Shown piece by piece: positions 635 to 58,465 of a DNA stretch of 64,000 nucleotides (its first letter is position 1; each line of letters begins with the position of its first letter). The DNA comes from Catellatospora methionotrophica (GTDB lineage: Bacteria; Actinomycetota; Actinomycetes; Mycobacteriales; Micromonosporaceae). Under the pieces are notes generated by a model. It was not told where the DNA came from and ran no database searches. It worked only from the letters and a program-made list of their open reading frames with translations. A program made the position numbers and the translations under genes. The DNA is taken from positions 147,737 to 211,736 of the forward strand of contig NZ_JAAOTJ010000013.1 of the NCBI RefSeq assembly GCF_011297335.1. Reading direction: 5' to 3'.

Positions 635-1576
635 ATGACAGCTGCAGCGATCGCGGTCTCGGGACTGCGTAAGGCGTACAAGGACAAGGTCGTGCTCGAC
701 GGCATCGACTTCGAGGTCCGCGCGGGAACGGTGTTCTCCCTGCTCGGCCCGAACGGTGCGGGCAAGACGACGACGGTAAACGTGCTCACCACCCTGATGA
801 AGGCCGACGGCGGCACGATCCGGGTCGCGGGCCACGACATCGCGACCGAGGCGAAGGCGGTGCGGGCGGCGATCGGGGTCACCGGCCAGTTCGCGGCGGT
901 CGACGAGCTGCTGACGGGCCAGGAGAACCTGCAGCTGATGGCGGACCTGAACCGCGCGGTCACCGGCGACGGCAAGCGGATCGTCGCGGACCTGCTGGAG
1001 CGGTTCGAGCTGACCGCGGCGGCGGGCAAACCCGCCGCGACCTACTCCGGGGGTATGCGGCGCAAGCTCGACCTGGCGATGACGCTGGTCGGCAACCCGC
1101 AGATCATCTTCCTGGACGAGCCGACGACCGGGCTGGACCCGCGCAGCCGCCGCACCATGTGGGAGATCATCCGCGGCCTGGTCGCCGACGGCGTGACGGT
1201 CTTCCTGACCACCCAGTACCTGGAGGAGGCCGACCAGCTCGCGGACCGGATCGCGGTCCTCGACGCCGGGCGCCTGGTCGCCCAGGGCACCGCCGACGAA
1301 CTCAAGCGGCAGATCCCCGGCACCCACATCCGGCTGCGGTTCTCCACCGCCGCCGAACTCGACGCCGCCGCGCGGGTGCTGACCGACGCGACGCGCGACG
1401 ACGAGGCGCTGGCCCTGCGGGTGCCCAGCGACGGCGGCACCAAGTCGCTGCGGGCCCTGCTCGACCGGCTCGACGAGTACTCCCTCAGCGCCGAGGAGTG
1501 CTCGGTGCACACCCCCGACCTCGACGACGTTTTCCTCGCCCTGACGGGCCACACCACGGAGGTGGACGCGAAATGA
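635..1576 (+). CDS. DrrA-like ABC transporter ATP-binding protein
   Basis: Cytoplasmic ATPase of a daunorubicin-resistance-type exporter, 313 residues, starting at ATG 635 (MTAAAIAVSGLRKAY). It has Walker A GPNGAGKTT with Lys44, the signature YSGGMRRKLDLA, Walker B IIFLDEPTTGLDP and an H-loop-like TTQYLEEADQLAD. The C-terminal third matches the extension typical of DrrA proteins. The next gene starts within its stop codon (ATGA), so the two are translationally coupled and should form one exporter. The substrate cannot be read from the sequence. The upstream direct repeats suggest control by the AfsR-type regulator at 2303-5437. Confidence 0.93.
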   Translation: MTAAAIAVSGLRKAYKDKVVLDGIDFEVRAGTVFSLLGPNGAGKTTTVNVLTTLMKADGGTIRVAGHDIATEAKAVRAAIGVTGQFAAVDELLTGQENLQLMADLNRAVTGDGKRIVADLLERFELTAAAGKPAATYSGGMRRKLDLAMTLVGNPQIIFLDEPTTGLDPRSRRTMWEIIRGLVADGVTVFLTTQYLEEADQLADRIAVLDAGRLVAQGTADELKRQIPGTHIRLRFSTAAELDAAARVLTDATRDDEALALRVPSDGGTKSLRALLDRLDEYSLSAEECSVHTPDLDDVFLALTGHTTEVDAK

Positions 1577-2319
1577 GCAAGTCACACGCGCTGGTGATGC
1601 TGCGCCGCAACTTCAAGCACATCGCCCGGAACCCGACCTCGGTCTTCAACGCCGTGCTCATGCCGATCATCATCATGCTGATGTTCGTGTACATGTTCGG
1701 TGACGCCTTCAGCGTCGGCGTCGACTACATCGACTACGCCACGCCGGGCCTGATCCTGCTGGCCGTGTGCTACGGGCTCGGCGGCACCGCGACGGCGGTG
1801 AACTCCGACATGACCAAGGGCATCATCAACCGGTTCAAGGTCATGGACGTGTCGCGCGGTGCGGTGCTGACCGGCCACGTCATCGCCAGCGTGCTGACCA
1901 ACGTGATCGCGATCGCGGCACTGGTCGGGGTGGCGTTCGCGCTCGGTTTCAGCCCGGCGGCGAACCTGGCGCAGTGGCTCGGCGTGGCCGGCATGGTCGT
2001 GCTGCTCGGCTTCGCGGCCGGCTGGCTCACGGTCGCCCTGGGACTGTCGGCGAAGTCGCCGGAGACGGCCGGTATGGCCGCCGTGCCGCTGGTCATGCTG
2101 CCGTTCTTCAGCAGCGCGATCGTGCCGGCCGAGAAGATGGGCCCAGGCCTGCGGCAGTTCGCGGAGTACCAGCCCTTCACGCCGATCATCGAGACGATGC
2201 GCGGGCTGCTCAACGGCACGCCGGACACCACCGCCACCATCGTGGCCGTCAGCTGGTGTGCGGCGATCGCGCTGGCCGGCTACCTGTGGGCGAGCTCCAC
2301 CTTCAAGAAGCGAGCGTGA
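1573..2319 (+). CDS. DrrB-like ABC-2 type permease
   Basis: Membrane partner of the preceding ATPase, 248 residues, about six hydrophobic helices. The start ATG overlaps the upstream stop by 4 bp. The N-terminal cytoplasmic segment (RRNFKHIARNPTSVF) followed by a helix beginning NAVLMPIIIMLMFVYMFG is characteristic of DrrB-family permeases. The region LPFFSSAIVPAEKMGPGLR near the C-terminus matches the conserved ABC-2 loop. The gene ends 17 bp inside the 3' end of the convergent regulator gene. Expected to export a small amphiphilic molecule; the actual substrate is unknown. Confidence 0.93.
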   Translation: MSKSHALVMLRRNFKHIARNPTSVFNAVLMPIIIMLMFVYMFGDAFSVGVDYIDYATPGLILLAVCYGLGGTATAVNSDMTKGIINRFKVMDVSRGAVLTGHVIASVLTNVIAIAALVGVAFALGFSPAANLAQWLGVAGMVVLLGFAAGWLTVALGLSAKSPETAGMAAVPLVMLPFFSSAIVPAEKMGPGLRQFAEYQPFTPIIETMRGLLNGTPDTTATIVAVSWCAAIALAGYLWASSTFKKRA

Positions 2320-5300
2320 CCTCGGCCAGCTGAGCCCAGCTCGTCGCAGCACCCTTCGCAGCCGCCTCGGCGAACCCCGGGTTCCCGAGGCGGCTGCGTG
2401 CCGCCAGCTCGATCCGGGCCGTGTCGGGCAGGGCGTGGTCGGCCAGCCCGCGCACCGCGTCACCCGCCGCCAGCAGTCGCGCGGCCTGCTCGGGCTGGTC
2501 GCGGCGCAGGGCCAGGTCGGCCAGCCCGACGAGCACCTGGGCGATCATCGGCAGGTGACCCGTCTCGGCCGCCGCCCGGTAGGCCGCGGCGCGGTGCGCA
2601 CGGGCCTCGGTCAGGTCGTCGGTGAGGTAGCCCAGCATGTCGTGGGTCAGCGCGCGCAGCTTGTCGGCCTTGTCGCCGAGCAGGGCCGTCGCCGTGTCGA
2701 GCTGGCGGCGGGCCTGCTCGGCGTCGCCCTGCCAGCGGGCCAGTTCCGCCTTCGTCAGGGCCAGCTCCGCCAGAGCCTCGGGCCAGGTGACCCGCGCGGC
2801 GTGGCGTTCCGCCTCGGCCATCGCGGCCGCGGCCGCGCCGTCGTCGCCGCGCAGCCAGTGCAGCTGGGCCTGCCGCGACCGCATCCGGATGACGTCCTCG
2901 ACCGCCCCGACCTCGGTGACGACCGCGACGGCCTGCTCGTAGTACGCGCAGGCCTGGGCGAAGTCGCCCCGGGTGGCGATGCGGTCGGCGAGCACGGTCA
3001 GCGCGAACGAGATCCCGAACCGCTCGCCGATCGCCTCGAACGCGGCCAGGGCGGTCCGCAGGTCGGTGTCCGCGTCGTCTCCGGCGTGGCCGAGCAGGAT
3101 CCGTGACTTGCCCAGGTGCAGCCGGGACAGGGCGCGTACCCACGGGTCCTCGTGGTCGAGCATCGACTCCCACGCGGGCAGCAGCGCGTCCGGCCCGGTC
3201 AGCTTGCGTTCCAGCGGGACGACCACGGCCAGCACGGGGTGGCGTGAACTGGTGCGTACGGCATACCGGTACGCCCGGTGGATCCAGTCCGCGACCTGGT
3301 GCTCGTCGGCGGCCCGCCCGGAGCTGGCGAATGTCACGGCGTGCCCGTACACGGTGGCCCGGATCTCGTCGTCGACCTCGCCGGGCAGGGCGGCGGCCGC
3401 GGTGATCAGCTCCAGGCCCTCGGCCCGGTGCCCGCTGAGCCACCAGTACCAGCCCGCTCCGGCCGCGAGCCGCATCGCCGCCTGCGCGTGCCCGGCCGCC
3501 AGCACGCCCCGCATCGCGGCGGTGAGGTTGTCGTGTTCGGCGTCGAGCGTGGCCAGCCAGGCCAGCTGCTCGGCGCGGCGCAGGTGCGGGTCGGCGGTCT
3601 CGGCGAGCGCGGTGAAGTACGCCAGGTGCGCCTGGCGGGCCGGGCCCGTCTCCCCGGCTTCGGCGAGGCGCTGCTCGGCGTACTCCTTGATGGTCCCGAG
3701 CATCCGGTAGCGCGGCGCGCTGCCGCCCGCGGCGACCAGCAGCGACTTCTCGGTCAGCGCGGTCAGCAGCTCCAGCACGTCCTCGGGTGCGACGGTCTGC
3801 CCGGCGCAGACCTGCTCGGCCGCCTCCAGTCCCGCGCCGCCGGAGAACACCGACAGCCTGCGCAGCACGGCCCGTTCGGCGTCGGTGAGCAGCTCCCAGC
3901 TCCAGTCGACCATCGCGCGCAGGGTCCGGTGCCGGGGCAGGGCCGTGCGGCTGCCGCCGGTCAGCAGCCGGAACCGGTCGTCGAGCCGGTTCGCGAGCTG
4001 CTCGATCGACATGGTGCGCAGCCGGGCCGCGGCCAGCTCGATGGCCAGCGGCATACCGTCCAGCACCCGGCAGACCCGCGCCATCGTCACCAGTGTGTGC
4101 GTGTCGACCACGAGATCGCTGCGGACCGCACCGGCCCGGTCCAGCAGCAGCCGCACGGACGGGGCGGCCGCGATCTCGTCGGGGCCGGCGTCCCGGCCGG
4201 GCACGGCCAGCGGCGCGACCGGCCACAGCGCCTCACCGGTGATGCCCAGCGGCTCCCGGCTGGTCGCCAGGATCCGCAGGTGGCGGCACTCGCCGAGCAG
4301 GCGGTGGGCGAGTTCGGCGGCCGGTGCCACGACGTGCTCGCAGTTGTCCAGGATCAGCAGCATCTCCCGGTCGCGGATCGCGGCGATGAGCCGTTCGCGC
4401 GGCTCCAGGCTCGACGGCTCGCCGAGCAGCGCGTCCCGCAGCCCCAGCGCGGCGAGCGTGGCCTGCGCGACGTCGCCGTCGCCGCCGATGGCCGCGAACT
4501 CCACCATCCAGGCTCCGTCGGGCAGGTCGCCGAGCAGCCTGTGGCCGGTCTCGGTGGCCAGCCGCGTCTTGCCCGAGCCGCCGGGGCCGATCAGGGTGGT
4601 GAGCCGGTGCTCGGCCACCAGCCCGGCGACGGCCGCCACGTCGGCGTCCTTGCCGACGTAGCTGGCCAGCTCGGCCCGCAGGTTGGTGGTCCGGTTGCCC
4701 TCCCGGCGGCCGGACTCGCCGCGCAGCAGCGCCACGTGCAGCGCGGACAGCTCGGGGGAGGGGTCGACGCCCAGCTCGTCGACCAGCGCCTCGCGGGTGC
4801 GCTGGTACACCTGCAGGGCCTCGGTGTCCTGCCCGGACGCCGCCAGCGCCCGCATCAGCGCGGCGGCGAGCCGTTCGCGCAGCGGGTGCGCGGCCACCAG
4901 GTCGCTCAGCTCCGTGACCAGCTGCGCGCCGTGGCCGAGCCGGATCTCCGCGTCGCACCGGTCCTCCAGCGCGTTGAGGCGCAACCGGTCGAGCCGGGTG
5001 ACGGCCGCGTCGAAGGCGGCGCTGTCGGGCAGGCCGACGTCCTGCATGGCCGCACCGCGCCACAGGGCCAGGGCCTCGCGCAGCCGCCGTACGCGCTGCG
5101 GGCCCTGTTCGTCACGGGCCAGGGCCACCAGGCGCTCGAAGCGCACCGCGTCGACGGCGTCAGGCGGCACGGCCAGCCGGTAGCCGTCGGTCAGCCCCTC
5201 GATCGCGCCGTCGGGCAGCACCTTGCGCAGCCGGGAGACCAGGCGGTGCAGGGCGTTCGTCGCCTCGGCGGGCGGCTGCTCGCCCCAGATCCAGTCGAGC

Positions 5301-46338: not shown

Positions 46339-46914
46339 TCAGGCCTGGCCCAGGTGGGCGTCGAGCGCGGCGCGCAGCAGCGGGTCGACGTCGTCGGTCT
46401 GCACGGTCATCTGCAGGCTGCCCCAGAGCCAGAGCTGCGCGATGCCGTGCAGGTTGGCCCAGAGTGCCCCGGCGACGACGACGGGCTCGGGCGGGGTCAG
46501 GCCCTGGCGGGCGCGGGTGACCAGGTCGACGAGTACGCCGAATAGCTGGCGGCTGGCGTCGCGCAGGCCGATCTGGTTGCCGCGCAGCAGTTCGTGGCGG
46601 AACATCAGCTCGAACATGCCGCGCTGGGTGCGGGCGAAGTCGAGGTAGGCGCGGCCGAGCAGGAGCAGCCCGTCACGCGGGTCGTGCTCGTCGCGCAGTC
46701 CGGCGATGCGCCCGCCCAGGTCCTGGTAGCCGACCTGGGCGATGGCGGACAGCAGCGACAGGTGACTGGGGAAGTAGCGGCGCGGCGCGCCGTGCGACAC
46801 CCCGGCCCGCCGGGCGATCTCGCGCAGTGTCAGGGATCCGGGCCCTTCCCGGGTGAGCAGGTCCACGCCCACCTCGATCAGACGGGCCCGCAGGGTGGTG
46901 TCCTGATCAGGCAT
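46339..46914 (-). CDS. TetR-family regulator
   Basis: 191 residues from ATG 46914 (a GTG at 46920 is also in frame). HTH: LREIARRAGVSHGAPRRYFPS, then a WHG-type ligand domain with MFELMFRHELLRG. There is no ribosome site before either start because the upstream bases are operator, so the message may be leaderless. It forms an operon with the acyltransferase gene. Likely autorepressor through the paired operators at 46914-46949. Confidence 0.9.
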   Translation of the reverse strand: MPDQDTTLRARLIEVGVDLLTREGPGSLTLREIARRAGVSHGAPRRYFPSHLSLLSAIAQVGYQDLGGRIAGLRDEHDPRDGLLLLGRAYLDFARTQRGMFELMFRHELLRGNQIGLRDASRQLFGVLVDLVTRARQGLTPPEPVVVAGALWANLHGIAQLWLWGSLQMTVQTDDVDPLLRAALDAHLGQA

Positions 46915-46949
46915 AGACACTGTCTACCAGACCCGGTAGACAGTGTCTA
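46914..46949. promoter_or_regulatory. Nested palindromic operators at the TetR start codon
   Basis: TAGACACTGTCTAC (46914-46927) and GTAGACAGTGTCTA (46936-46949) are perfect reverse complements, and each is itself palindromic about one base (TAGACA-C-TGTCTA). The left copy overlaps the start codon. Confidence 0.8.
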
Positions 46950-47029
46950 CTAGCCGACTCCGCTGCGATGCTGGAGTTCGACGGCCATCTACACTCCACA
47001 GTCCGACCGTCGGCGGGATGGGGAGCGTG

Positions 47030-48616
47030 ATGGCAGGCCGGTCCGTGCTGGCGGGGCAGCCCGCGTGGTGGCCGGTGGCGGGCGTCGCCGCCCTGGCCGT
47101 GGCGGTCGGCGTGGAGTCGGCGCTGCCGGGGCAGCCGATCGTGTCGGCCGTGCTGGTCGGGCTGTCGGCGCTGTGCGGCGCGGTATGGGGCGCGCGCGGG
47201 ATCGCGGCCGTGCTGGCCGGGTTCGTCGTGCTCGCCGTGTTCGGCCGTCCGGAGCCGGTGGTCGTCCTCGGTATGCCCGTGGCGGCGCTGGTCCTGGCCG
47301 GGGCGGCGGGGCTGTGGCGGATCGCGTCGGCCAGGGCGGCCCGCGACCGGCTGGCAGCGCGGGCCGAGGCGGTGGCGGCCGAGCGGGCACGGGTGGCCCG
47401 CGAGATGCACGACTCGCTCGGCAAGACCCTCGACGCGATCGCGCTGGGCGCGGCCGCGCTGCCGGACACGCTCGACGAACCCGACCGGGCCGGGCGGCTG
47501 GCCCGCGTACTGCGCGACGGGACGCTCGACGCGGCCCGGGACGCCCGCGCGATCATCGACGGCCTGCGCGCACACCCCGCCGACGCGCCGCTGCCAGACC
47601 TGGTCGGCGACATCGCGCGGGGGTGGTCGGCGGACACCGGAGTCGCGGTGGACCTGACGGTCGGCGCGGTCGAGGCCGACCCGCAGACCGCCGTCGACCT
47701 GTGCTGGATCCTGCGCGAGGCGCTGCGCAACGTCGCCCGGCACGCTGGAGCGGCCCGGGTCGGCGTGCTGCTGCTGCGCCGCGAGGGCGACGACGTGCTG
47801 CTGCGCGTCGCCGACGACGGCGTCGGGTTCGCGGTGACCGGCGGGCCGGGATCGTGGTCGGTGGCGGACCCGGGCCCCGTCCCGGAAGGCGGCCGATACG
47901 GGCTGGTGGGTATGGCCGAACGAGCCGCCGCCGGAGGTGGTGAGCTGGACGTGGTCAGCGCGCCGGGCCGGGGCACGGTAATCACGGCCCGGATGCCGAT
48001 CAGGCCACCGGGCGTCGTGGCCGTCGGCGCCGGTCGTGCCGCCAAGGTCGCGCTGCTGGTGACCGGTGCGCTCGTCGCGGCGGCGGTGAGCGTCGCGCTG
48101 AGTCCGGGGCAGCGGCCGCCCAGCGCCCTCCCGCCGGCCGTGCCGTCGCCGTCGGCGATGGTGACCCGGTCGCCGTCGCCGTCGCTCGGGGCGGGACCGT
48201 CCGCCTCGCCGGTGGCGGGGTCACCTCGGGCGACGAGCTCAGCCGCCGGTGGCGTACCGCCGAAGAGTTCGCGGCCGAGCGCGAAGCCGCAGCCGGACGC
48301 CGCCGCCTGCCGGGTGCGGTACAGCATCCGCAACCAGTGGGATCCGGGGTTCATCGCCGACATCACGGTCACCAACACCGGGGGCACGACCGTCGACGGC
48401 TGGACGCTGAGGTTCGCGTTCCCGGCCGACCAGCAGCTGATGAACGGCTGGTCGGCGACGGTGGGCCAGTCGGGGCGGGAGGTCACCGCCAACGACGGCG
48501 GCTACCACCCGCGGCTCGCGCCGGGCGAGGCCGTCACGTTCGGCATCCAGGGCACCTGGGGCGTCGCCAACCCCGCGCCGTCGGTGTTCACCCTGAACGG
48601 CCGCCGCTGCGGCTGA
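47030..48616 (+). CDS. Sensor histidine kinase with C-terminal CBM2 cellulose-binding domain
   Basis: 528 residues; ATG 47030 has GGGGAG 4 bp upstream (ATG 47018 is an alternative). Four transmembrane helices (about 15-32, 37-54, 57-72, 77-97) precede a HisKA_3 dimerisation domain with phospho-acceptor His127 in REMHDSLGKTLDAIALGAA, then a HATPase (ILREALRNVARH, VADDGVGF, GRYGLVGMAERA; to about 325). A fifth helix follows (about 337-357), then a Pro/Ser linker (about 358-422) and a complete CBM2 (about 425-528) bounded by Cys residues. Its surface Trp equivalents are kept: NQWDPGF, NGWSATVG and GTWGVANP. With four N-terminal helices, the fifth puts the CBM outside. It should bind cellulose and signal to a NarL-type regulator; the sensing role is inferred. 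Confidence 0.88.
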   Translation: MAGRSVLAGQPAWWPVAGVAALAVAVGVESALPGQPIVSAVLVGLSALCGAVWGARGIAAVLAGFVVLAVFGRPEPVVVLGMPVAALVLAGAAGLWRIASARAARDRLAARAEAVAAERARVAREMHDSLGKTLDAIALGAAALPDTLDEPDRAGRLARVLRDGTLDAARDARAIIDGLRAHPADAPLPDLVGDIARGWSADTGVAVDLTVGAVEADPQTAVDLCWILREALRNVARHAGAARVGVLLLRREGDDVLLRVADDGVGFAVTGGPGSWSVADPGPVPEGGRYGLVGMAERAAAGGGELDVVSAPGRGTVITARMPIRPPGVVAVGAGRAAKVALLVTGALVAAAVSVALSPGQRPPSALPPAVPSPSAMVTRSPSPSLGAGPSASPVAGSPRATSSAAGGVPPKSSRPSAKPQPDAAACRVRYSIRNQWDPGFIADITVTNTGGTTVDGWTLRFAFPADQQLMNGWSATVGQSGREVTANDGGYHPRLAPGEAVTFGIQGTWGVANPAPSVFTLNGRRCG

Positions 48617-49286
48617 CCGGCGCGTACGGCGACGGCCGTCCCTCCAGCCAGGACACGACCGCCTGGGCGCGGTTGCGCGCGCCGAGTTTGCCGTAGATGC
48701 GGCTGACCCGGTTGCGCACCGTCTTCTCGGCCAGCGCGAGCCGCACGGCGATCTGGCCGTTGGACTCCCCGGCGACCAGCAGCTCCATGATCTCGCGGTC
48801 GCGGCGGGACAGGTCCGGCCGGGCCGGGGGCGGTGCGGAGTCTCCGCGCCGCAGGTGGGCGACCACGTCGGCGACGGCGGCGGGGGACAGGCGGCTCTGG
48901 CCGTGCGTCGTGGCGTGCACCGCGTCGAGCAGCTCCCACCGGGTGAACTGCCCCTCGACCAGCACGCTGGTCGCCCCGGCGCGCAGGCAGGCGACCGTGT
49001 CCGCCGCGGCGGAGCGCGCGATCAGCAGGCAGGGCACGTGCGCGAGCAGGCGGCCCAGCGCGCCCAGGTCCCGCAGCGGCTGGGCGCTGTGCAGCAGCAC
49101 CAGGTCGGGCACGGCCAGCGGGCGTCCCGGCAGCAGGTCGGCGGGCGTGAGCTGGGCGGTCACCGCCGCCGCGGACCCGACCAGCGCGGCGATCTCGTCC
49201 GGCCGCGACGCGACCACCAGCATGCGTGGTGCGCCCGGCTGCGCGACGGCGGCCGGACGCACCACGCGCCCCTCCCACCCGGTCAT
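48588..49286 (-). CDS. LuxR/NarL-type regulator with degenerate receiver domain
   Basis: 232 residues from ATG 49286 (GAGGTGA upstream). A receiver-like domain (residues about 20-135) lacks its acidic pair (VVASRPD instead of VVDD) and has His66 in place of the phospho-acceptor Asp (PDLVLLH). The C-terminal LuxR HTH is intact: LSRRDREIMELLVAGESNG followed by IAVRLALAEKTVRNRV. Such atypical regulators act without phosphorylation. Its 3' end overlaps the convergent kinase gene by 29 bp, inside the CBM2 coding region. Confidence 0.85.
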   Translation of the reverse strand: MTGWEGRVVRPAAVAQPGAPRMLVVASRPDEIAALVGSAAAVTAQLTPADLLPGRPLAVPDLVLLHSAQPLRDLGALGRLLAHVPCLLIARSAAADTVACLRAGATSVLVEGQFTRWELLDAVHATTHGQSRLSPAAVADVVAHLRRGDSAPPPARPDLSRRDREIMELLVAGESNGQIAVRLALAEKTVRNRVSRIYGKLGARNRAQAVVSWLEGRPSPYAPVSRSGGRSG

Positions 49287-49538
49287 CCCGTCACCTCGTC
49301 CTGTCGGCACCACTTCACCGGCCCGGCGGAGTCGCGGGCGCCCACCCGTCCGGGGTGACCGCGTCGGGCGCGGGGCATCGAGAGCAGACCACGCCGCGCG
49401 CGGACCGGCGACGGTGCGCGGATGTGCGAGACGGGTGCGACTCGGCGCGTTACTGCTGCGGCGGTGCAGGTGGCGGCGCTGGCGGCACCCAGAGCCGCTG
49501 GGTGTCGGCGGGCCGGAATTGGGGGGTGAACCGCCGGG

Positions 49539-50180
49539 TCAGGCGCGGCGGCGGGGGCCGCGCCAGATGGCGGTGGCCTCGTCGCGGGTGCGCGCGCCGA
49601 GCTTGGCGAAGACGCGGTTCACGTGGTTCTCGACCGTCTTCACGGCGACGACCAGGCGGTTGGCGATGGCCCCGTTGGACAGGCCGCCTGCGATCAGCTC
49701 CATCACCTCGCGCTCACGGCGCGACAGGCCGTGCCGGTCGGCGGTGCGCGGCTCGGGCGCCCGGCGGACGCTGCTGACCAGCACCCGGGCGGCGGTGGGG
49801 GACAGGTGCGCCTCGCCACCGGCGACGGCCTGGATGGCCTGGCGCAGCTCGGCCGGTCCGAACTGGCCGTGTACGAGGTAACCGGCCGCGCCCGCGCGGA
49901 TCGCGGCGAGCACCACGTCCTCGTCGACGGTGCGGGTGAGCATGAGAACCCGGCTGTGCGCGCTGATCGAGGCGATCACCGACAGCCCGTCGCGCCGGGG
50001 CATGCGGTGGTCGAGCAGGGTGACGTCGGGGCGCAGGGTGCTGGCCAGCTCCAGGGCGCGCTCGCCGTCGCCCGCCTCGCCGACGACCGACAGCGGCCCC
50101 TGCCCGTGCAGCATCTCCCGCAGCACCGAGCGCACGACGCTGTTGTCGTCGGCGACCAGCACGGTGGTGGGCTCGTCCAT
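49539..50180 (-). CDS. NarL-family response regulator
   Basis: 213 residues from ATG 50180. Receiver domain with acidic pair Asp11-Asp12 (VLVADDNS) and phospho-acceptor Asp57 (VTLLDHRMP), then a LuxR HTH: LSRREREVMELIAGGLSNG and LVVAVKTVENHV. It is the natural partner for the HisKA_3 kinase at 47030, which is the only such kinase in the window. It is divergent from the cellulase at 50536, whose promoter region it shares. Confidence 0.92.
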   Translation of the reverse strand: MDEPTTVLVADDNSVVRSVLREMLHGQGPLSVVGEAGDGERALELASTLRPDVTLLDHRMPRRDGLSVIASISAHSRVLMLTRTVDEDVVLAAIRAGAAGYLVHGQFGPAELRQAIQAVAGGEAHLSPTAARVLVSSVRRAPEPRTADRHGLSRREREVMELIAGGLSNGAIANRLVVAVKTVENHVNRVFAKLGARTRDEATAIWRGPRRRA

Positions 50181-50368
50181 GGGCTCAAGGTAACGGCGTA
50201 TCCGCCCGTGGGCCAGAGATTGCGTGAACGGGCTGTCACCGGCGGCGACGTACGTCCCCGCGCGTCCGGGACATCCTTTCGCGACTGTCCCGGCTTTCCG
50301 GGGACATTGATGCCAACGATTGCCGGTGCGTTGCCCGCCGGTGAATTCCGCTCCTAGGCTCACCGCCA

Positions 50369-50382
50369 CGGGAGCGCTCCTT
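50369..50382. promoter_or_regulatory. Partial CebR-like box
   Basis: CGGGAGCGCTCCTT retains the GGAGCGCTCC core of the TGGGAGCGCTCCCA operator with three outer mismatches. Confidence 0.4.
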
Positions 50383-50491: not shown

Positions 50492-50509
50492 ATTGGGAGC
50501 GCTCCCAAT
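50492..50509. promoter_or_regulatory. CebR operator before the GH6-GH5 cellulase gene
   Basis: ATTGGGAGCGCTCCCAAT, an 18-bp perfect palindrome containing the 14-bp CebR consensus TGGGAGCGCTCCCA known from Streptomyces cellulose-utilisation genes. CebR is a LacI-family repressor released by cello-oligosaccharides. The gene for CebR is not in this window. Confidence 0.85.
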
Positions 50510-50535: not shown

Positions 50536-53500
50536 ATGATGAGAGGCACCAGAAGAAGGCCGGGAGGTTGGCGTCTCGGCGCGGCCGCCCTGGCCGTGGC
50601 GACCGCGGCGGCCCTGGTCACCGCGGTGGCGAGCGCGGCTGAGGCCGCCGAAGCCCACATGGACAACCCGTTCGCGGGGGCCACCACCTACGTCAACCCC
50701 GACTACGCGACCCTGATCGACGGGTCCATCGCGCAGACGCCGGACGCGACGCTCAAGGCCAAGATGCAGACGGTCAAGTCGTACCCGACCGCGGTCTGGC
50801 TGGACCGGATCGCCGCCATCCACGGCGGGGCCGCCAACGCCGGGCGCAAGAGCCTGGCCGACCACCTGAACCTGGCCGTGGCGCAGAAGGGGACCGGCCC
50901 GATCACGGCCACCTTCGTCGTCTACGACCTGCCCGGCCGCGACTGCGCGGCGCTGGCCTCCAACGGCGAACTGCCGCTGACCGCGGCGGGCCTGGCCCGG
51001 TACAAGACCGAGTACATCGACGCGATCGCGGCCGAGTTCGCCAAGCCGGCGTACGCCAACGTGCGCATCATCGCGGTGATCGAGCCCGACGGCCTGCCGA
51101 ACCTGGTCACCAACGTGGCCAGTGACCCGGAGTGCCAGGCGGCGAAGACGTCCGGCCTCCAGGTGCAGGCGGTGCAGTACGCGCTGAACAAGCTGCACGC
51201 GATCTCGAACGTGTACACGTACATGGACATCGCGCACTCGGGCTGGCTGGGCTGGGACAACAACCTGACCGGGGTGGTGCAGCTCTACACCCAGACGGTG
51301 CAGGGCACCACGGCCGGGCTCGCCAGCGTCGACGGTTTCGTCACCAACGTGTCGAACTACACGCCGACCGCCGAGCCGTTCCTGACCGACCCGAGCCTGA
51401 ACGTGGGCGGCCAGCCGATCAAGAGCGGCACGTACTACGAGTGGAACCCGCAGTTCGACGAGTCGGACTTCACCGCGGCGCTGTACACGGCGTTCACCGG
51501 GGCGGGCTGGCCAGCGGGCATCGGCATGGTCGTCGACACGTCCCGCAACGGCTGGGGCGGTGCGGGACGGCCGACCGCCGTCTCCACCAGCACGAACCTG
51601 AACACGTACGTCACCGAGTCCAAGGTGGACCGACGGGTGCACCGGGGCCTGTGGTGCAACACGTCCGGAGCGGGGCTGGGCGCTCCGCCGCAGTCGGCGC
51701 CGGGCGGGTTCGCGGCCTCGCACCTGGACGCCTACATCTGGGTCAAGCCGCCGGGCGAGTCCGACGGCTCCAGCTCGACGATCCCGAACGACGAGGGCAA
51801 GCTCGCGGACCCGATGTGCAACCCGGACTTCAACGCCCCCGCCGGGGGCGGCAACAAGACCGGGGCGCTGCCGAACGCGCCGCTGGCCGGGCACTGGTTC
51901 CACGACCAGTTCGCGATGCTGGTCGCCAACGCCAACCCGGCGGTGCCGACCGCACCGGTCAACGACACCCAGGCGCCCAGCGTGCCGGGCGGGCTGACCG
52001 TCACCGGCACGACCGCCTCGAGCGTGGCGCTGGCCTGGACCGCGTCGACCGACAACATCGGCGTGACCGGCTACGACGTGTACCGGGGCACCACGAAGGT
52101 CGGCACGGCCACGGGCACGACCTACAGCGACACGGGCCTGACCGCTTCCACGGCGTACAGCTACACGGTGCGGGCGCGGGACGCGGCGGGCAACACCTCG
52201 GCGGCTTCGGCGTCCGTCACCGGCACCACGACCGCGGGCGGCGGTGACACCAGCGCGCCGACCGTCCCGGCGAACCTGCGCGCGGGTGCGGTCACCACCT
52301 CCAGCATCACGCTGGCCTGGGACGCCTCGACCGACAACGTCGGCGTGACCGGCTACGACGTGTACCGGGGCACCACCAAGGCCAACGCGAACCCGGTGGT
52401 CGGCACCAGCTACACCGACACGGGTCTGACCGCCTCCACGGCGTACAGCTACACGGTCCGGGCGCGCGACGCGGCGGGCAACGTCTCGGCGGCCTCGGCG
52501 GCGTTCAGTGCGACGACCTCGGGCACCGGCGGCGGCACCGGCAAGGACTGGCTGCACACCGTCGGCAACAAGATCGTCGACGAGAGCGGCAACGAGGTCT
52601 GGCTGACCGGTGTGAACTGGTTCGGCTTCAACGCCACCGAGAAGGTGTTCCACGGCCTGTGGTCGGGCAACATCACCTCGATCACCCGGTCGATGTCGCA
52701 GCGCGGCATCAACATCGTGCGCGTGCCGATCTCCACCCAGCTGCTGCTGGAGTGGAAGAACGGCCAGGCCGCGGTGCCCAGCGGCGTCAACACGTTCGCC
52801 AACCCCGAGCTGGTCGGCAAGACCACGCTGCAGGTGTGGGACTACTGGCTGGGGCTGTGCGAGCAGTACGGCATCAAGGTCATGATCGACGTGCACAGCG
52901 CCGAGGCCGACAACTCCGGGCACATCTACCCGGTGTGGTGGAAGGGCTCGGTCACCAGCGAGCAGTTCTACCAGGCGTGGGAGTGGGTCGCCGACCGGTA
53001 CAAGAACAACGACACGGTCGTCGCCATGGACGTCAAGAACGAGCCGCACGGCAAGCACAACGAGAGCCCGCGCGCCAAGTGGGACAACTCGACCGACCAG
53101 GACAACTTCAAGAACGCCTGCCAGGTCGCCGGCAACCGGATCCTCGCGAAGAACCCGAACGTGCTCATCCTCTGCGAGGGCATCGAGATCTTCCCGAAGA
53201 ACGGCACCAACTGGTCCTCGACCGTCGAGGGCGACTACCACTTCAACTGGTGGGGCGGCAACCTGCGCGGCGTCGCGAACTACCCGGTGAACCTGGGTGT
53301 CAACCAGGACCAGCTGGTGTACTCGCCGCACGACTACGGCCCGCTGGTCTACAACCAGCCGTGGTTCGACAAGCCGTTCGACAAGGCCTCGCTGACCACC
53401 GACGTGTGGGACCCGAACTGGCTCTACATCCACAAGCAGAACAAGGCTCCGCTGCTCATCGGCGAGTGGGGCGGCCGGCTGGGCATGGACGCCCGGCAGG

Positions 53501-54792
53501 ACAAGTGGATGCTGGCGCTGCGCGACACCATCGTCGAGCACCGGCTGCACCAGACGTTCTGGTGCCTGAACCCCAACTCCGGTGACACCGGCGGCCTGCT
53601 GCTCGACGACTGGGCCACCTGGGACGAGGCGAAGTACGCCATGCTCAAGCCGGCGCTGTGGTCCTCGGGCGGCAAGTTCGTCAGCCTCGACCACCAGGTC
53701 AAGCTCGGCGGTACGGGCAGCACGACGGGCATCAGCCTGACCGACCTGTACGGCGGCACCACCGACACCCAGGCCCCGTCGGTCCCAGGCGGCCTGACCG
53801 TCACCGGGACCACGTCGTCGACCGTGTCGCTGTCGTGGACCGCGTCCACGGACAACGTCGCGGTCACCGGCTACGACGTCTACCGGGGCACTGCCAAGGT
53901 CAACGCCAACCCGGTGGTGGGCACGACCTACACCGACGCGGGCCTGACCGCCTCGACCGCGTACACCTACACGGTCCGGGCACGGGACGCGGCGGGCAAC
54001 GTCTCGGCGGCGTCCGCCTCGGCGACCGGCACCACCACCGGCGGTGGCGGCGACACCCAGGCCCCGTCCGTCCCGGGCGGGCTGACCGTCACCGGCACCA
54101 CGCAGACCAGCGTGTCCCTGTCGTGGACGGCGTCGACCGACGACGTCGGCGTCACCGGCTACGACGTGTACCGGGGGTCGACGAAGGTCAACGCGAACCC
54201 GGTCACCGCGACGGCGTACACCGACGCGGGCCTGACGCCCGCGACGGCGTACAGCTACTCGGTGCGGGCGCGTGACGCGGCGGGCAACGTGTCGGCGGCC
54301 TCGTCGAGCGTGAGCGCGACGACGCAGCCGTCCACGCCGGCCGGCGGGCTCAAGGTGCAGTACCGCAACGGCGGCGGCAACGCCTCCGACGGGGAGATCC
54401 GCCCGGTCGTGCAGGTGCTCAACACCGGCACGTCGGCGGTCGCGCTGAACACGGTGAAGGTGCGCTACTACTTCACCCGCGACGGCTCGGCCCCGATCAG
54501 CGTGTACTGCGACTGGGCCGTGGTCGGCTGCGGCAACCTGACCGCGACCGTGGTCAGCATGGCCTCGCCGAAGAACGGCGCGGACGCGTACCTGGAGATC
54601 GCCTTCACCGGCGGCAGCCTCGCCGCCGGTGGCGGCACCGGTGACATCCAGGTCCGGATGAACAAGAACGACTGGTCGGCGTTCAACGAGAACAACGACT
54701 ACAGCTACGGCACCGGCAGCTCCTTCGCCGACGCCCCGAAGATCACCGCGCACGTGGGCTCGTCGCTCGCGTGGGGCGTGATCCCCTCCTGA
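50536..54792 (+). CDS. Secreted multidomain cellulase GH6-FN3-FN3-GH5-FN3-FN3-CBM3
   Basis: 1418 residues. Signal peptide about 1-39. GH6 catalytic domain (about 42-470) with general acid Asp136 in LPGRDCAAL and VIEPDGLPNL; it fits a cellobiohydrolase or endoglucanase. Two FN3 domains (about 476-660), GH5 (about 670-1060) with acid/base Glu836 in DVKNEPHG and nucleophile Glu977 in LIGEWGG, two more FN3 domains (about 1076-1262), and a CBM3 at 1269-1418 (GGLKVQYRNGGGNASDGEIR opening). It combines two cellulolytic activities in one chain for crystalline cellulose. Preceded by a perfect CebR box and adjacent to the cellulose-sensing kinase system. Confidence 0.93.
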   Translation: MMRGTRRRPGGWRLGAAALAVATAAALVTAVASAAEAAEAHMDNPFAGATTYVNPDYATLIDGSIAQTPDATLKAKMQTVKSYPTAVWLDRIAAIHGGAANAGRKSLADHLNLAVAQKGTGPITATFVVYDLPGRDCAALASNGELPLTAAGLARYKTEYIDAIAAEFAKPAYANVRIIAVIEPDGLPNLVTNVASDPECQAAKTSGLQVQAVQYALNKLHAISNVYTYMDIAHSGWLGWDNNLTGVVQLYTQTVQGTTAGLASVDGFVTNVSNYTPTAEPFLTDPSLNVGGQPIKSGTYYEWNPQFDESDFTAALYTAFTGAGWPAGIGMVVDTSRNGWGGAGRPTAVSTSTNLNTYVTESKVDRRVHRGLWCNTSGAGLGAPPQSAPGGFAASHLDAYIWVKPPGESDGSSSTIPNDEGKLADPMCNPDFNAPAGGGNKTGALPNAPLAGHWFHDQFAMLVANANPAVPTAPVNDTQAPSVPGGLTVTGTTASSVALAWTASTDNIGVTGYDVYRGTTKVGTATGTTYSDTGLTASTAYSYTVRARDAAGNTSAASASVTGTTTAGGGDTSAPTVPANLRAGAVTTSSITLAWDASTDNVGVTGYDVYRGTTKANANPVVGTSYTDTGLTASTAYSYTVRARDAAGNVSAASAAFSATTSGTGGGTGKDWLHTVGNKIVDESGNEVWLTGVNWFGFNATEKVFHGLWSGNITSITRSMSQRGINIVRVPISTQLLLEWKNGQAAVPSGVNTFANPELVGKTTLQVWDYWLGLCEQYGIKVMIDVHSAEADNSGHIYPVWWKGSVTSEQFYQAWEWVADRYKNNDTVVAMDVKNEPHGKHNESPRAKWDNSTDQDNFKNACQVAGNRILAKNPNVLILCEGIEIFPKNGTNWSSTVEGDYHFNWWGGNLRGVANYPVNLGVNQDQLVYSPHDYGPLVYNQPWFDKPFDKASLTTDVWDPNWLYIHKQNKAPLLIGEWGGRLGMDARQDKWMLALRDTIVEHRLHQTFWCLNPNSGDTGGLLLDDWATWDEAKYAMLKPALWSSGGKFVSLDHQVKLGGTGSTTGISLTDLYGGTTDTQAPSVPGGLTVTGTTSSTVSLSWTASTDNVAVTGYDVYRGTAKVNANPVVGTTYTDAGLTASTAYTYTVRARDAAGNVSAASASATGTTTGGGGDTQAPSVPGGLTVTGTTQTSVSLSWTASTDDVGVTGYDVYRGSTKVNANPVTATAYTDAGLTPATAYSYSVRARDAAGNVSAASSSVSATTQPSTPAGGLKVQYRNGGGNASDGEIRPVVQVLNTGTSAVALNTVKVRYYFTRDGSAPISVYCDWAVVGCGNLTATVVSMASPKNGADAYLEIAFTGGSLAAGGGTGDIQVRMNKNDWSAFNENNDYSYGTGSSFADAPKITAHVGSSLAWGVIPS

Positions 54793-56765: not shown

Positions 56766-56912
56766 GCGTGTTCCTCCCGTGGTGCGGCGTATGCGCTACA
56801 TCCGATCACGACGAGACGTATTTCTGAAAGTTTCAGTGGCTCTGCGGCGATATGAGGCTTCGATGGATGCATATGTTGCGAAGGGATTACCGGAGCCTTA
56901 AGCTCTGGTCGA

Positions 56913-56926
56913 TGGGAGCGCTCCCG
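56913..56926. promoter_or_regulatory. CebR operator before the CBM2-GH5 gene
   Basis: TGGGAGCGCTCCCG, one mismatch to the 14-bp CebR consensus, about 90 bp before the endoglucanase start. Confidence 0.8.
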
Positions 56927-57016
56927 GTCGCTGGCCAGGGCGTTTGCTGCCCCCTTGTTGCCCGACGAGGGTCGCGTCTGCGCGCGCCCATGCCCGATCC
57001 CGACGAAAGGCTCGTC

Positions 57017-58465
57017 ATGAGACTCCTCCCGCGCGCGTCCCGGCGCGCCCTGATCGCGGCCGGCGCGGTCGGCGCGCTCGCCATGGGCGTCACCGTCGCG
57101 CTGCCCGTGGTCAACGCGATGGCCGCCAGCGGCTGCTCCGTCACCTACACCATCGCCAACCAGTGGCAGGGCGGCTTCACCGCCAACGTCACCGTCAAGA
57201 ACCTCGGCGACCAGCTCAACGGCTGGACGCTCGGCTTCACCTTCCCGAACTCCGGCCAGCAGGTCACCCAGGGCTGGTCGGCCACGTACGCCCAGAGCGG
57301 CGCGAACGTCACCGCGGCGAGCATGAGCTACAACGGCTCGCTGGCCACCAACGCCTCCACCGGCATCGGCTTCAACGGCAGCTGGACCAGCGCCAACCCG
57401 GTGCCGACGTCGTTCACGCTCAACGGCACGGTGTGCACCGGTTCGACGACCCCCAGCTCGCCCGCGCCGAGCAGCTCGGCGTCGCCCCGGCCGTCCGCCT
57501 CGCCGAGCCCGTCGCAGCCGGTCGGGCAGACGCCCGTCGCGATCAACGGCCAGCTGCGCGTCTGCGGGGTGAACCTGTGCAACCGGTTCAACCGCCCGAT
57601 CCAGCTGCGCGGCATGAGCACGCACGGCCTGCAGTGGTTCGCGAACTGCTACAACGACAACTCGCTCAACGCGCTGGCCGGCGACTGGCAGGCCGACCTG
57701 CTGCGGGTGTCGATGTACGTGCAGGAGCAGGGCTACGAGACCAACCCGGCCGGGTTCACCAACCAGGTGAACAACCTCGTCGAGGAGGCCACCGAGCGGG
57801 GCCTGTACGCGATGATCGACTTCCACACGCTGACGCCGGGTGACCCGATGTACAACCTGGAGCGGGCGAAGACCTTCTTCGCGGCCGTGTCGGCCCGCCA
57901 CGCGGCCAAGAACAACGTGATCTACGAGATCACCAACGAGCCGAACGGCGTGAGCTGGTCGACCATCAAGAACTACGCCGAGCAGGTCATCCCGGTGATC
58001 CGCGCCAACGACCCGGACGCCGTGGTCATCGTCGGCACCCGCGGCTGGTCGTCGCTGGGCGTCTCGGAGGGCGGCAACTCCACCGAGATCATCAACAACA
58101 AGGTCAACGCCACCAACATCATGTACGCGTTCCACTTCTACGCCGCGTCGCACAAGGACAACTACCGCGCCGAGGTCGAGCGGGCCGCCGCCGCGCTGCC
58201 GATCTTCGTCACCGAGTTCGGCACGGTCACCTACACCGGCGGCGGCGCGGTCGACCAGTCCAGCAGCACCGCCTGGCTGGACATGCTGGACCGGCTGAAG
58301 ATCGGCTACGCGAACTGGACCTACTCCGACGCGAGCGAGGGCAGTGCCGCGTTCAAGCCGGGCACCTGCAACGGCAGCCAGTACGCGGGCACCTCGGTGC
58401 TGACCGAGTCCGGCAACTTCATGCGCAGCCGGATCCGGACCGCCGACAACTTCCCGACCAGCTGA
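57017..58465 (+). CDS. Secreted endoglucanase, CBM2-GH5
   Basis: 482 residues from ATG 57017 with AAAGG upstream. Signal peptide about 1-37 (ends VVNAMAAS). CBM2 domain about 38-140 (CSVTYTIANQWQGGF, QGWSATYAQSG, GSWTSANPVPT), Ser/Pro linker 141-170, then GH5 (from VAINGQLRVCGVNLCNRF) with acid/base Glu308 in YEITNEPNG and nucleophile Glu400 in FVTEFGTV; the GH5_2 type. It cuts internal beta-1,4 bonds of cellulose. Its CBM2 is closely similar in layout to that of the kinase at 47030. Confidence 0.95.
   Translation: MRLLPRASRRALIAAGAVGALAMGVTVALPVVNAMAASGCSVTYTIANQWQGGFTANVTVKNLGDQLNGWTLGFTFPNSGQQVTQGWSATYAQSGANVTAASMSYNGSLATNASTGIGFNGSWTSANPVPTSFTLNGTVCTGSTTPSSPAPSSSASPRPSASPSPSQPVGQTPVAINGQLRVCGVNLCNRFNRPIQLRGMSTHGLQWFANCYNDNSLNALAGDWQADLLRVSMYVQEQGYETNPAGFTNQVNNLVEEATERGLYAMIDFHTLTPGDPMYNLERAKTFFAAVSARHAAKNNVIYEITNEPNGVSWSTIKNYAEQVIPVIRANDPDAVVIVGTRGWSSLGVSEGGNSTEIINNKVNATNIMYAFHFYAASHKDNYRAEVERAAAALPIFVTEFGTVTYTGGGAVDQSSSTAWLDMLDRLKIGYANWTYSDASEGSAAFKPGTCNGSQYAGTSVLTESGNFMRSRIRTADNFPTS

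Follow-up and report, generated by a model that had tools for sequence, protein, structure and literature searches.

A histidine kinase carrying a CBM2 at its C-terminus, probably a sensor of insoluble cellulose, encoded next to a cellulase gene in Catellatospora methionotrophica

We analysed a stretch of 64,000 nucleotides from Catellatospora methionotrophica (contig NZ_JAAOTJ010000013.1, positions 147,737 to 211,736; hereafter the window), which encodes at positions 47030-48616 of the plus strand a histidine kinase of 528 amino acids with a carbohydrate-binding module, CBM2, at its C-terminus. Our results suggest that this protein, termed HK-CBM2, is likely a membrane kinase that senses insoluble cellulose and switches on a neighbouring cellulase gene via two adjacent NarL-type regulators, RR1 and RR2. 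How bacteria notice an insoluble polymer before any of it has been dissolved is an old question, to which the usual actinobacterial answer is the action of soluble cello-oligosaccharides on CebR. If our reading is true, this compact locus, in which a predicted operator adjoins a CebR box, offers a way to test whether solid cellulose is sensed directly, and it would show a histidine kinase receiving its signal through the C-terminus. In addition, the kinase might serve as a component of engineered cells that respond when they touch cellulose.

The reading frame of HK-CBM2 is uninterrupted from the ATG at 47030 to the stop codon at 48614-48616, with no internal stop. An alternative in-frame GTG is located upstream at 46943; the ATG is the likely start, since GGGGAG precedes it and since P0002 and P0003, the nearest relatives, have their N termini aligned with it. 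The protein starts with an N-terminal membrane region (residues 13-95; 47066-47314), and hydropathy places four transmembrane (TM) segments ahead of the kinase core. This core consists of a HisKA_3/DHp domain (residues 118-181; 47381-47572), in which Pfam and alignment identify the phospho-acceptor His127 (codon 47408-47410), and a HATPase_c (CA) domain with intact N and G boxes (residues 222-325; 47693-48004). It is followed by a fifth TM helix, TM5 (residues 336-357; 48035-48100), found both by hydropathy (340-358) and by AlphaFold2, a linker rich in Ser, Pro, and Ala for which disorder and a position outside the membrane are predicted (residues 359-426; 48104-48307), and the CBM2 (residues 427-527; 48308-48610). 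The Pfam scores for HisKA_3, HATPase_c, and CBM_2 are 41.8, 38.9, and 101.7 bits, relative to curated cut-offs of 24, 26.4, and 24, respectively. With both kinase domains over their cut-offs and the His, the N-box Asn, and the G-box Gly present, HK-CBM2 can be assigned by sequence to the HisKA_3 (NarX/DesK-type) kinases. According to Pfam, the chain contains no σ factor domains, nor is it a hybrid two-component protein, as receiver and DNA-binding domains sit in separate genes.

The AlphaFold2 model (mean predicted local distance difference test score [pLDDT], 74.8) shows a long helix that continues from the fourth TM segment into the DHp domain, a helix at residues 336-357, a linker (359-422) with pLDDT below 50, and a CBM2 that, starting at residue 431, has block means of 88-97. 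In Foldseek searches, the kinase part matched DesK and the CBM2 part matched CBM2 structures from C. fimi, with TMt values of 0.91-0.92 for the best rows. The Pfam match together with the CBM2 fold places the C-terminal module in this family. Thus, the first-pass annotation of this DNA, which had described a single frame in which a kinase core is followed by a fifth TM helix, a linker, and an entire CBM2, was borne out by the open reading frame (ORF), Pfam, hydropathy, and AlphaFold2.

A frameshift or assembly error, which that annotation had named as a potential refutation, was rejected because the same fusion is present in independent assemblies. A search over about 5.8 billion proteins returned 178 matches, and domains were counted in the 120 matches listed. 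Among these, at least 30 further clusters (P0002-P0031) carry HisKA_3, HATPase_c, and CBM2, so that the search for homologous fusions that had been proposed was successful; P0032 is a fragment with two of the three domains. Named sources of the fusion proteins are Catellatospora, Dactylosporangium, Hamadaea, and Rhizocola, and the existing database names include 'cellulose binding domain-containing protein' and 'histidine kinase'. In a tree of the kinase cores, the 31 CBM2-bearing proteins lie on one side of a branch (support 100/94) and 46 plain kinases (P0034-P0079) on the other; P0032, P0033, and P0080-P0120 were excluded, and the tree does not show on which side the root lies. This separation fits a single fusion event followed by retention. 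No C-terminal TM segment or tail of more than 60 amino acids was found at the 74 plain kinase loci of a genome scan, and one of the 74 has a CBM2 match. A plasmid origin was rejected: of 72,556 plasmid records searched by tblastn, seven were matched, all over less than 80% of the query, and the five plasmid records listed match the CBM2 part only.

The distribution of conservation along the fusion proteins points to the CBM2 as the site of input. Mean pairwise identities and gap fractions were computed over 31 proteins. The DHp domain is the most similar (78% identity), followed by the CA domain (57%) and the CBM2 (52.5%; gap fraction 0.00, with a gap or an insertion of one residue in 6 of 32 proteins). 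The phospho-acceptor His is present in all 31 proteins that reach this site, the N-box Asn and four G-box Gly in 32/32. The linker has 29% identity (gap fraction 0.32) and varies between 33 and 92 residues, while the N-terminal membrane part, with 35% identity and a gap fraction of 0.48, varies in length and has 0 to 5 TM segments among relatives, a few of which are perhaps truncated. All 32 aligned proteins have a hydrophobic segment separating CA from CBM2, yet TM5 and its inner flank show 34% identity (gap fraction 0.06), indicating that TM5 has been retained as a helix and not as a sequence. We place the input at the CBM2 because the constant part of these proteins is the unit DHp-CA-TM5-CBM2. 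The charges flanking TM5 favour a CBM2 outside the cell: the predicted inner side is more positive in 26 of the 32 proteins, equal in five, and opposite in one, so that five are neutral on this point and one speaks against it.

The CBM2 could instead be an anchor that keeps the kinase, or the whole cell, attached to cellulose, with the signal (membrane state or a small molecule) entering through the N-terminal helices as in DesK, where these helices are the sensor. The likeness of the kinase part to DesK would agree with this, and flexible linkers of 33-92 residues may transmit force poorly. But the N-terminal part, which would then be the sensor, is the region with the highest gap fraction and a changing number of TM segments, whereas the CBM2 is constant and nearly gap-free. 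Moreover, the 39 other CBM2 matches in the genome could provide attachment. We therefore regard a mere anchor as rather unlikely.

That the kinase senses cellulose itself, as proposed in the first-pass annotation, is the best reading of the sequence, but the binding face of the module differs from that of typical cellulase CBM2s. Both terminal cysteines are present, as had been claimed (Cys427 and Cys527), and they are invariant in the 32 kinase CBM2s. CBM2a modules carry three coplanar surface aromatics. Trp437 and Trp474 align with the surface residues W17 and W54 of Cex, and Tyr492 takes the place of its third surface Trp, W72. Hence, of the three surface Trp equivalents claimed earlier, two stand and the third is a Tyr. 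While the first two positions are Trp in 32/32 aligned kinase CBM2s, the third is aromatic in only two, including the window protein with its Tyr492, and non-aromatic in 30. In other CBM2 domains of the same genome, the third position is aromatic (W, Y, or F) in 29 of 38 (Fisher p about 1e-9 relative to the kinase set); these 38 are the domains recovered of 39 other genome matches and five of them belong to proteins without a clear identity as secreted enzymes (three in locus L134 and one each in L136 and L137). In total, the genome has 40 CBM2 matches, the kinase of the window being one of them, and a large cellulolytic repertoire. Judged by sequence, the sensor CBM2s thus mostly carry a two-Trp face, which may reflect tuning towards weaker, reversible binding or an altered ligand. 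The loss of the third aromatic speaks against a simple cellulose sensor, as affinity or ligand may differ from those of the cellulase CBM2s.

Accordingly, the module might bind a different polymer, such as xylan, chitin, or a cell-wall or matrix glucan, so that another surface would be reported. In addition to the missing aromatic, a Streptomyces CBM2-like chitin-binding domain (2rtt) is found among the structure matches. Binding of xylan is described for CBM2b and at least one CBM2a module in the accessible text of PMC9996879, which also states that CBM2b lacks an eight-residue stretch bearing a solvent-exposed Trp. No such eight-residue deletion was found relative to the C. fimi CBM2 or among the relatives, which show only single-residue gaps (P0021 and P0032). 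In addition, Arg versus Gly at one CBM2 position separates xylan from cellulose binders (PMC2914790, available portion), and this position, as mapped by our own alignment, is Gly440, the cellulose-type residue also required for the CBM2a subtype, in 32/32 kinase CBM2s. The best sequence and fold matches are cellulose-binding modules of C. fimi, the neighbouring enzymes belong to the cellulase families GH5, GH6, and GH9, and CebR boxes are located at the promoter. Overall, we consider a polymer other than cellulose improbable as the ligand.

The order of genes in the window is kinase (plus strand), RR1 (48588-49286, minus strand), RR2 (49539-50180, minus strand), and a divergent cellulase with the Pfam domains GH6, fn3, GH5, and CBM3 (50536-54792, plus strand). 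The likely starts of the regulators are the ATG codons at 49286 for RR1 (open from a GTG at 49313) and at 50180 for RR2 (ORF open from 50405). The kinase was found beside one or both regulators in 8/8 loci with an intact kinase, which represent five genera and kinases down to about 44% identity. The order kinase, RR1, RR2 recurs in L031, L032, L034, L036, and L129, while L033 and L035 have one regulator only. As the order is held in all eight loci, chance neighbourhood is an unlikely explanation. The presence of cellulase genes nearby, which had been suggested as a check, was largely but not fully confirmed: a GH5 cellulase comes next after the regulators in six of the eight loci, with a fragment in one and none in one. 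The GH6-GH5 enzyme is present in the window, L031, and L129, and its GH5 part in L032 (tblastn); in L033 and L035, the regulators are followed by GH5-CBM2 and then GH9-CBM2 genes (Pfam). The two Dactylosporangium loci have a GGDEF-EAL gene immediately upstream of the kinase (L032, 7199-9580; L036, 7148-9613).

This arrangement also bears on the question of which regulators the kinase serves. Its targets could be encoded elsewhere, with RR1 and RR2 answering another signal and the gene order inherited by chance. The kinase is on the opposite strand, convergent on RR1 with a tail-to-tail overlap of 29 bp, and shares no operon with the regulators; furthermore, defective kinase copies in the genomes G107 and G093 stand without RR1 and RR2. 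But given the adjacency in all eight intact loci across five genera, at a minimum kinase identity of about 44%, we judge a distant target very improbable.

The two regulators differ in their receivers. RR2 contains a Response_reg domain with the phospho-acceptor Asp and a GerE helix-turn-helix (HTH) domain and is thus a NarL/FixJ-type response regulator; its acidic pair, Asp, and Thr are retained in 8/8 proteins. The receiver of RR1 is degenerate: Pfam gives no Response_reg match for the window protein, its acidic pair is lost, and the Asp is replaced by His. In all six RR1 proteins the acidic pair is lost, and the Asp has been replaced by His in four and by Arg in one, and is retained in one. 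The predicted fold of RR1 is NarL/LiaR-like (pLDDT 73, from five sequences), the arrangement of its domains being unsure. According to our alignments, the regulator of the single-regulator genomes joins an RR2-type receiver to an RR1-type HTH. This suggests a regulator duplication that divided taking the phosphate from reading the ancestral site.

The region between RR2 and the cellulase gene contains two kinds of DNA boxes. A candidate RR1/RR2 operator (50253-50306) comprises two TGTCCC-N9-GGGACA palindromes, one exact (50286-50306) and one with a single mismatch (50253-50273). Just downstream of a promoter-like TAGGCT element follows an imperfect CebR box, GGGAGCGCTCC (11-bp match; 50370-50380), and an exact CebR box, TGGGAGCGCTCCCA, is located at 50494-50507. 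The promoter-like element reads TAGGCT or TACGCT by eye in the seven aligned regions. In all seven, a GTCCC-N9/10-GGGACA palindrome lies upstream of the CebR box, and in 20,000 sets of base shuffles it never occurred in more than one of the seven. The full TGTCCC arm is present in five (window, L031, L033, L034, and L035), and GGTCCC in L032 and L036. The exact N9 palindrome occurs once in the 8.39-Mb genome, and a genome-wide palindrome regulon was therefore rejected; with up to one mismatch, 37 places were found, compared to 18 for the reversed control. Palindrome and CebR box occur together in 8 of 354 genomes of the family, relative to 0/354 for the reversed control. All eight box-positive genomes, including that of the window, carry the kinase, and a kinase search (1e-40) covering all 23 other genomes of the five genera gave eight matches, the seven other box-positive genomes and the G107 copy. 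Since boxes and kinase share one locus, this reflects conservation of a unit and not independent co-occurrence.

The CebR boxes modify one claim of the first-pass annotation. According to the available text of PMC4898821, the 14-mer TGGGAGCGCTCCCA is the site of CebR, whose signal is cellobiose or small cello-oligosaccharides. CebR boxes were found in 7/7 regulator/cellulase regions compared, and the 12-bp core in 6/6 loci (L031-L036) versus 3/104 other loci, one of these three being the neighbouring cellulase in the window. Two exact copies of the 14-mer are present in the genome, the second of which precedes, by about 40 bp, an ORF judged by eye to encode GH9. As all seven regions contain CebR boxes, it is very likely that the same promoter also responds, via CebR, to soluble cello-oligosaccharides. 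The exclusion of these sugars as a signal was therefore too strict for the pathway as a whole.

Taken together, these data are consistent with the following mechanism. TM5 would place the CBM2 on the outer side of the membrane, held by a flexible tether, and the CBM2 modules of a kinase dimer, once settled on a cellulose surface, would hold or pull TM5. Only some ten residues separate this helix from the end of the ATPase domain, so that the docking of this domain on His127 of the DHp would be altered. The phosphate would then be passed to RR2, which has kept the phospho-acceptor Asp. RR1, without the acidic pair for ordinary phosphorylation, may join RR2 at the TGTCCC-N9-GGGACA palindromes, where both would raise transcription of the GH6-GH5 cellulase gene and probably of their own genes. 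Through its boxes at the same promoter, CebR would impose a further requirement, namely its release by soluble cello-oligosaccharides; full expression might then need contact with the solid substrate as well as its soluble products. Combined in its most specific form, with a surface-contact kinase read from behind by a C-terminal tether acting on the ATPase domain, a split output, and an AND gate with CebR, this scheme is a tentative proposal, which we consider less likely than not. In this form, the cell would gauge its physical contact with a solid polymer, RR2 would take the phosphate, and RR1, whose phosphate site is lost in most genomes, would keep the ancestral DNA-binding domain.

Several further observations weigh against cellulose sensing by this pathway. 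The model of HK-CBM2 has a predicted template modelling score (pTM) of 0.47, so the relative placement of its domains is uncertain, and the sequence of TM5 (34% identity) is about as variable as that of the N-terminal helices (35%). The pairing of kinase and regulators rests on adjacency, which is not proof of action. Receivers usually carry a conserved Lys at a position where RR2 has a His in 8/8 proteins, and phosphorylation of RR2 may therefore be unusual; in RR1, the loss of the phospho-site is not uniform, as the protein of G089 (L129) keeps its Asp. The single exact palindrome implies that the regulon may be this locus only. The Hamadaea locus L034 has the kinase, the regulators, and both boxes, but no GH5 cellulase, and L036 (D. 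aurantiacum) has only a GH5 fragment. Finally, not all kinase copies are intact. The G107 copy (L147, 8903-10264), from the genus of both Dactylosporangium loci, has a CA-TM-CBM2 arrangement and has lost the DHp domain with its His; this protein is possibly a decoy or a remnant. A second HK-CBM2 copy in G093 (L148, G093:C3), a genome matching Catelliglobosispora, is interrupted by two TAG stops. No RR1, RR2, or cellulase matches and no boxes were found within the 19 and 16 kb examined around the G107 and G093 copies, respectively. The DHp regions of P0024 and P0029 are also disturbed.

HK-CBM2 shares its kinase core and regulator folds with DesK/DesR and other HisKA_3/NarL-type systems; DesK itself has an N-terminal sensor and is not known to carry a C-terminal TM segment or a binding module. 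Another class for comparison are the PASTA-type Ser/Thr kinases. In P0109, L136, and L137, which unlike HK-CBM2 are Ser/Thr kinases, the kinase is followed by a C-terminal CBM2-like module, with a hydrophobic segment between them in L136 and L137. The modules of L136 (G000:C12:471000-475500) and L137 (G000:C1:353500-358000) match CBM2 weakly and have no surface Trp at the second of the positions discussed above; P0109, which stems from another source, also combines a kinase with CBM_2.

The closest likeness in layout is found in the RsgI anti-σI factors of Clostridium thermocellum, in which a cytoplasmic regulator is followed by a TM segment and an outer C-terminal CBM that binds an insoluble polysaccharide such as cellulose (PMC4711584, accessible part). 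Both systems have a TM segment followed by a C-terminal CBM and likely have a similar input, the membrane side of HK-CBM2 being a prediction; RsgI proteins control cellulase genes, as HK-CBM2 probably does. Based on the same source, RsgI proteins differ in their anti-σ output, their CBM3, PA14, or GH10 modules, and their occurrence in Clostridia, and they do not belong to the same family; Pfam finds no RsgI σI-binding domain in HK-CBM2, which has kinase domains instead. Some actinobacterial ECF52 and ECF53 σ factors are predicted to have a C-terminal TM segment and carbohydrate-binding or GH domains (PMC10766802, available sections), but their output is a σ factor without a phosphorelay. The XydS/XydR and solute-binding protein-linked systems of Clostridium cellulolyticum resemble HK-CBM2 in that two-component genes adjoin genes for enzymes acting on plant polysaccharides. 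According to the available portions of PMC3572039 and PMC3656788, they differ by AraC-type regulators and by a proposed signal from straw, its breakdown, or soluble sugars, and these portions describe no CBM in the sensors. CebR, whose box is common to this promoter, is a one-component repressor that answers cellobiose and small cello-oligosaccharides (PMC4898821, same text). A CBM2-bearing histidine kinase was found neither in the open-access literature, searched by titles and the start of abstracts, nor in the available parts of PMC2386152, PMC3656788, and PMC2914790. Within the reach of these searches, the statement that the reversed layout has no described example holds for histidine kinases, but not in general, since it is known from RsgI and predicted for ECF52/ECF53 (PMC4711584, PMC10766802; parts cited above). 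The principle of a regulator inside and a C-terminal CBM outside the cell is already known, and its use on a histidine kinase is, as far as our searches go, new.

The window also encodes a CBM2-GH5 cellulase (Pfam; 56852-58465, plus strand) with a one-mismatch CebR box at 56913-56926. Elsewhere, L134 (G000:C54:1-6500) contains at 670-4166 three adjacent genes whose products each combine a CBM2-like C-terminus with a hydrophobic segment and a Ser/Pro linker; Pfam assigns AHSA1 and CBM_2 to the second and third and gives no match for the first. Upstream of HK-CBM2, an inverted repeat (TAGACACTGTCTACC / GGTAGACAGTGTCTA) spans 46915-46955 at the start of a TetR gene (46339-46920, minus strand) and is, judged by eye, likely the operator of TetR itself.

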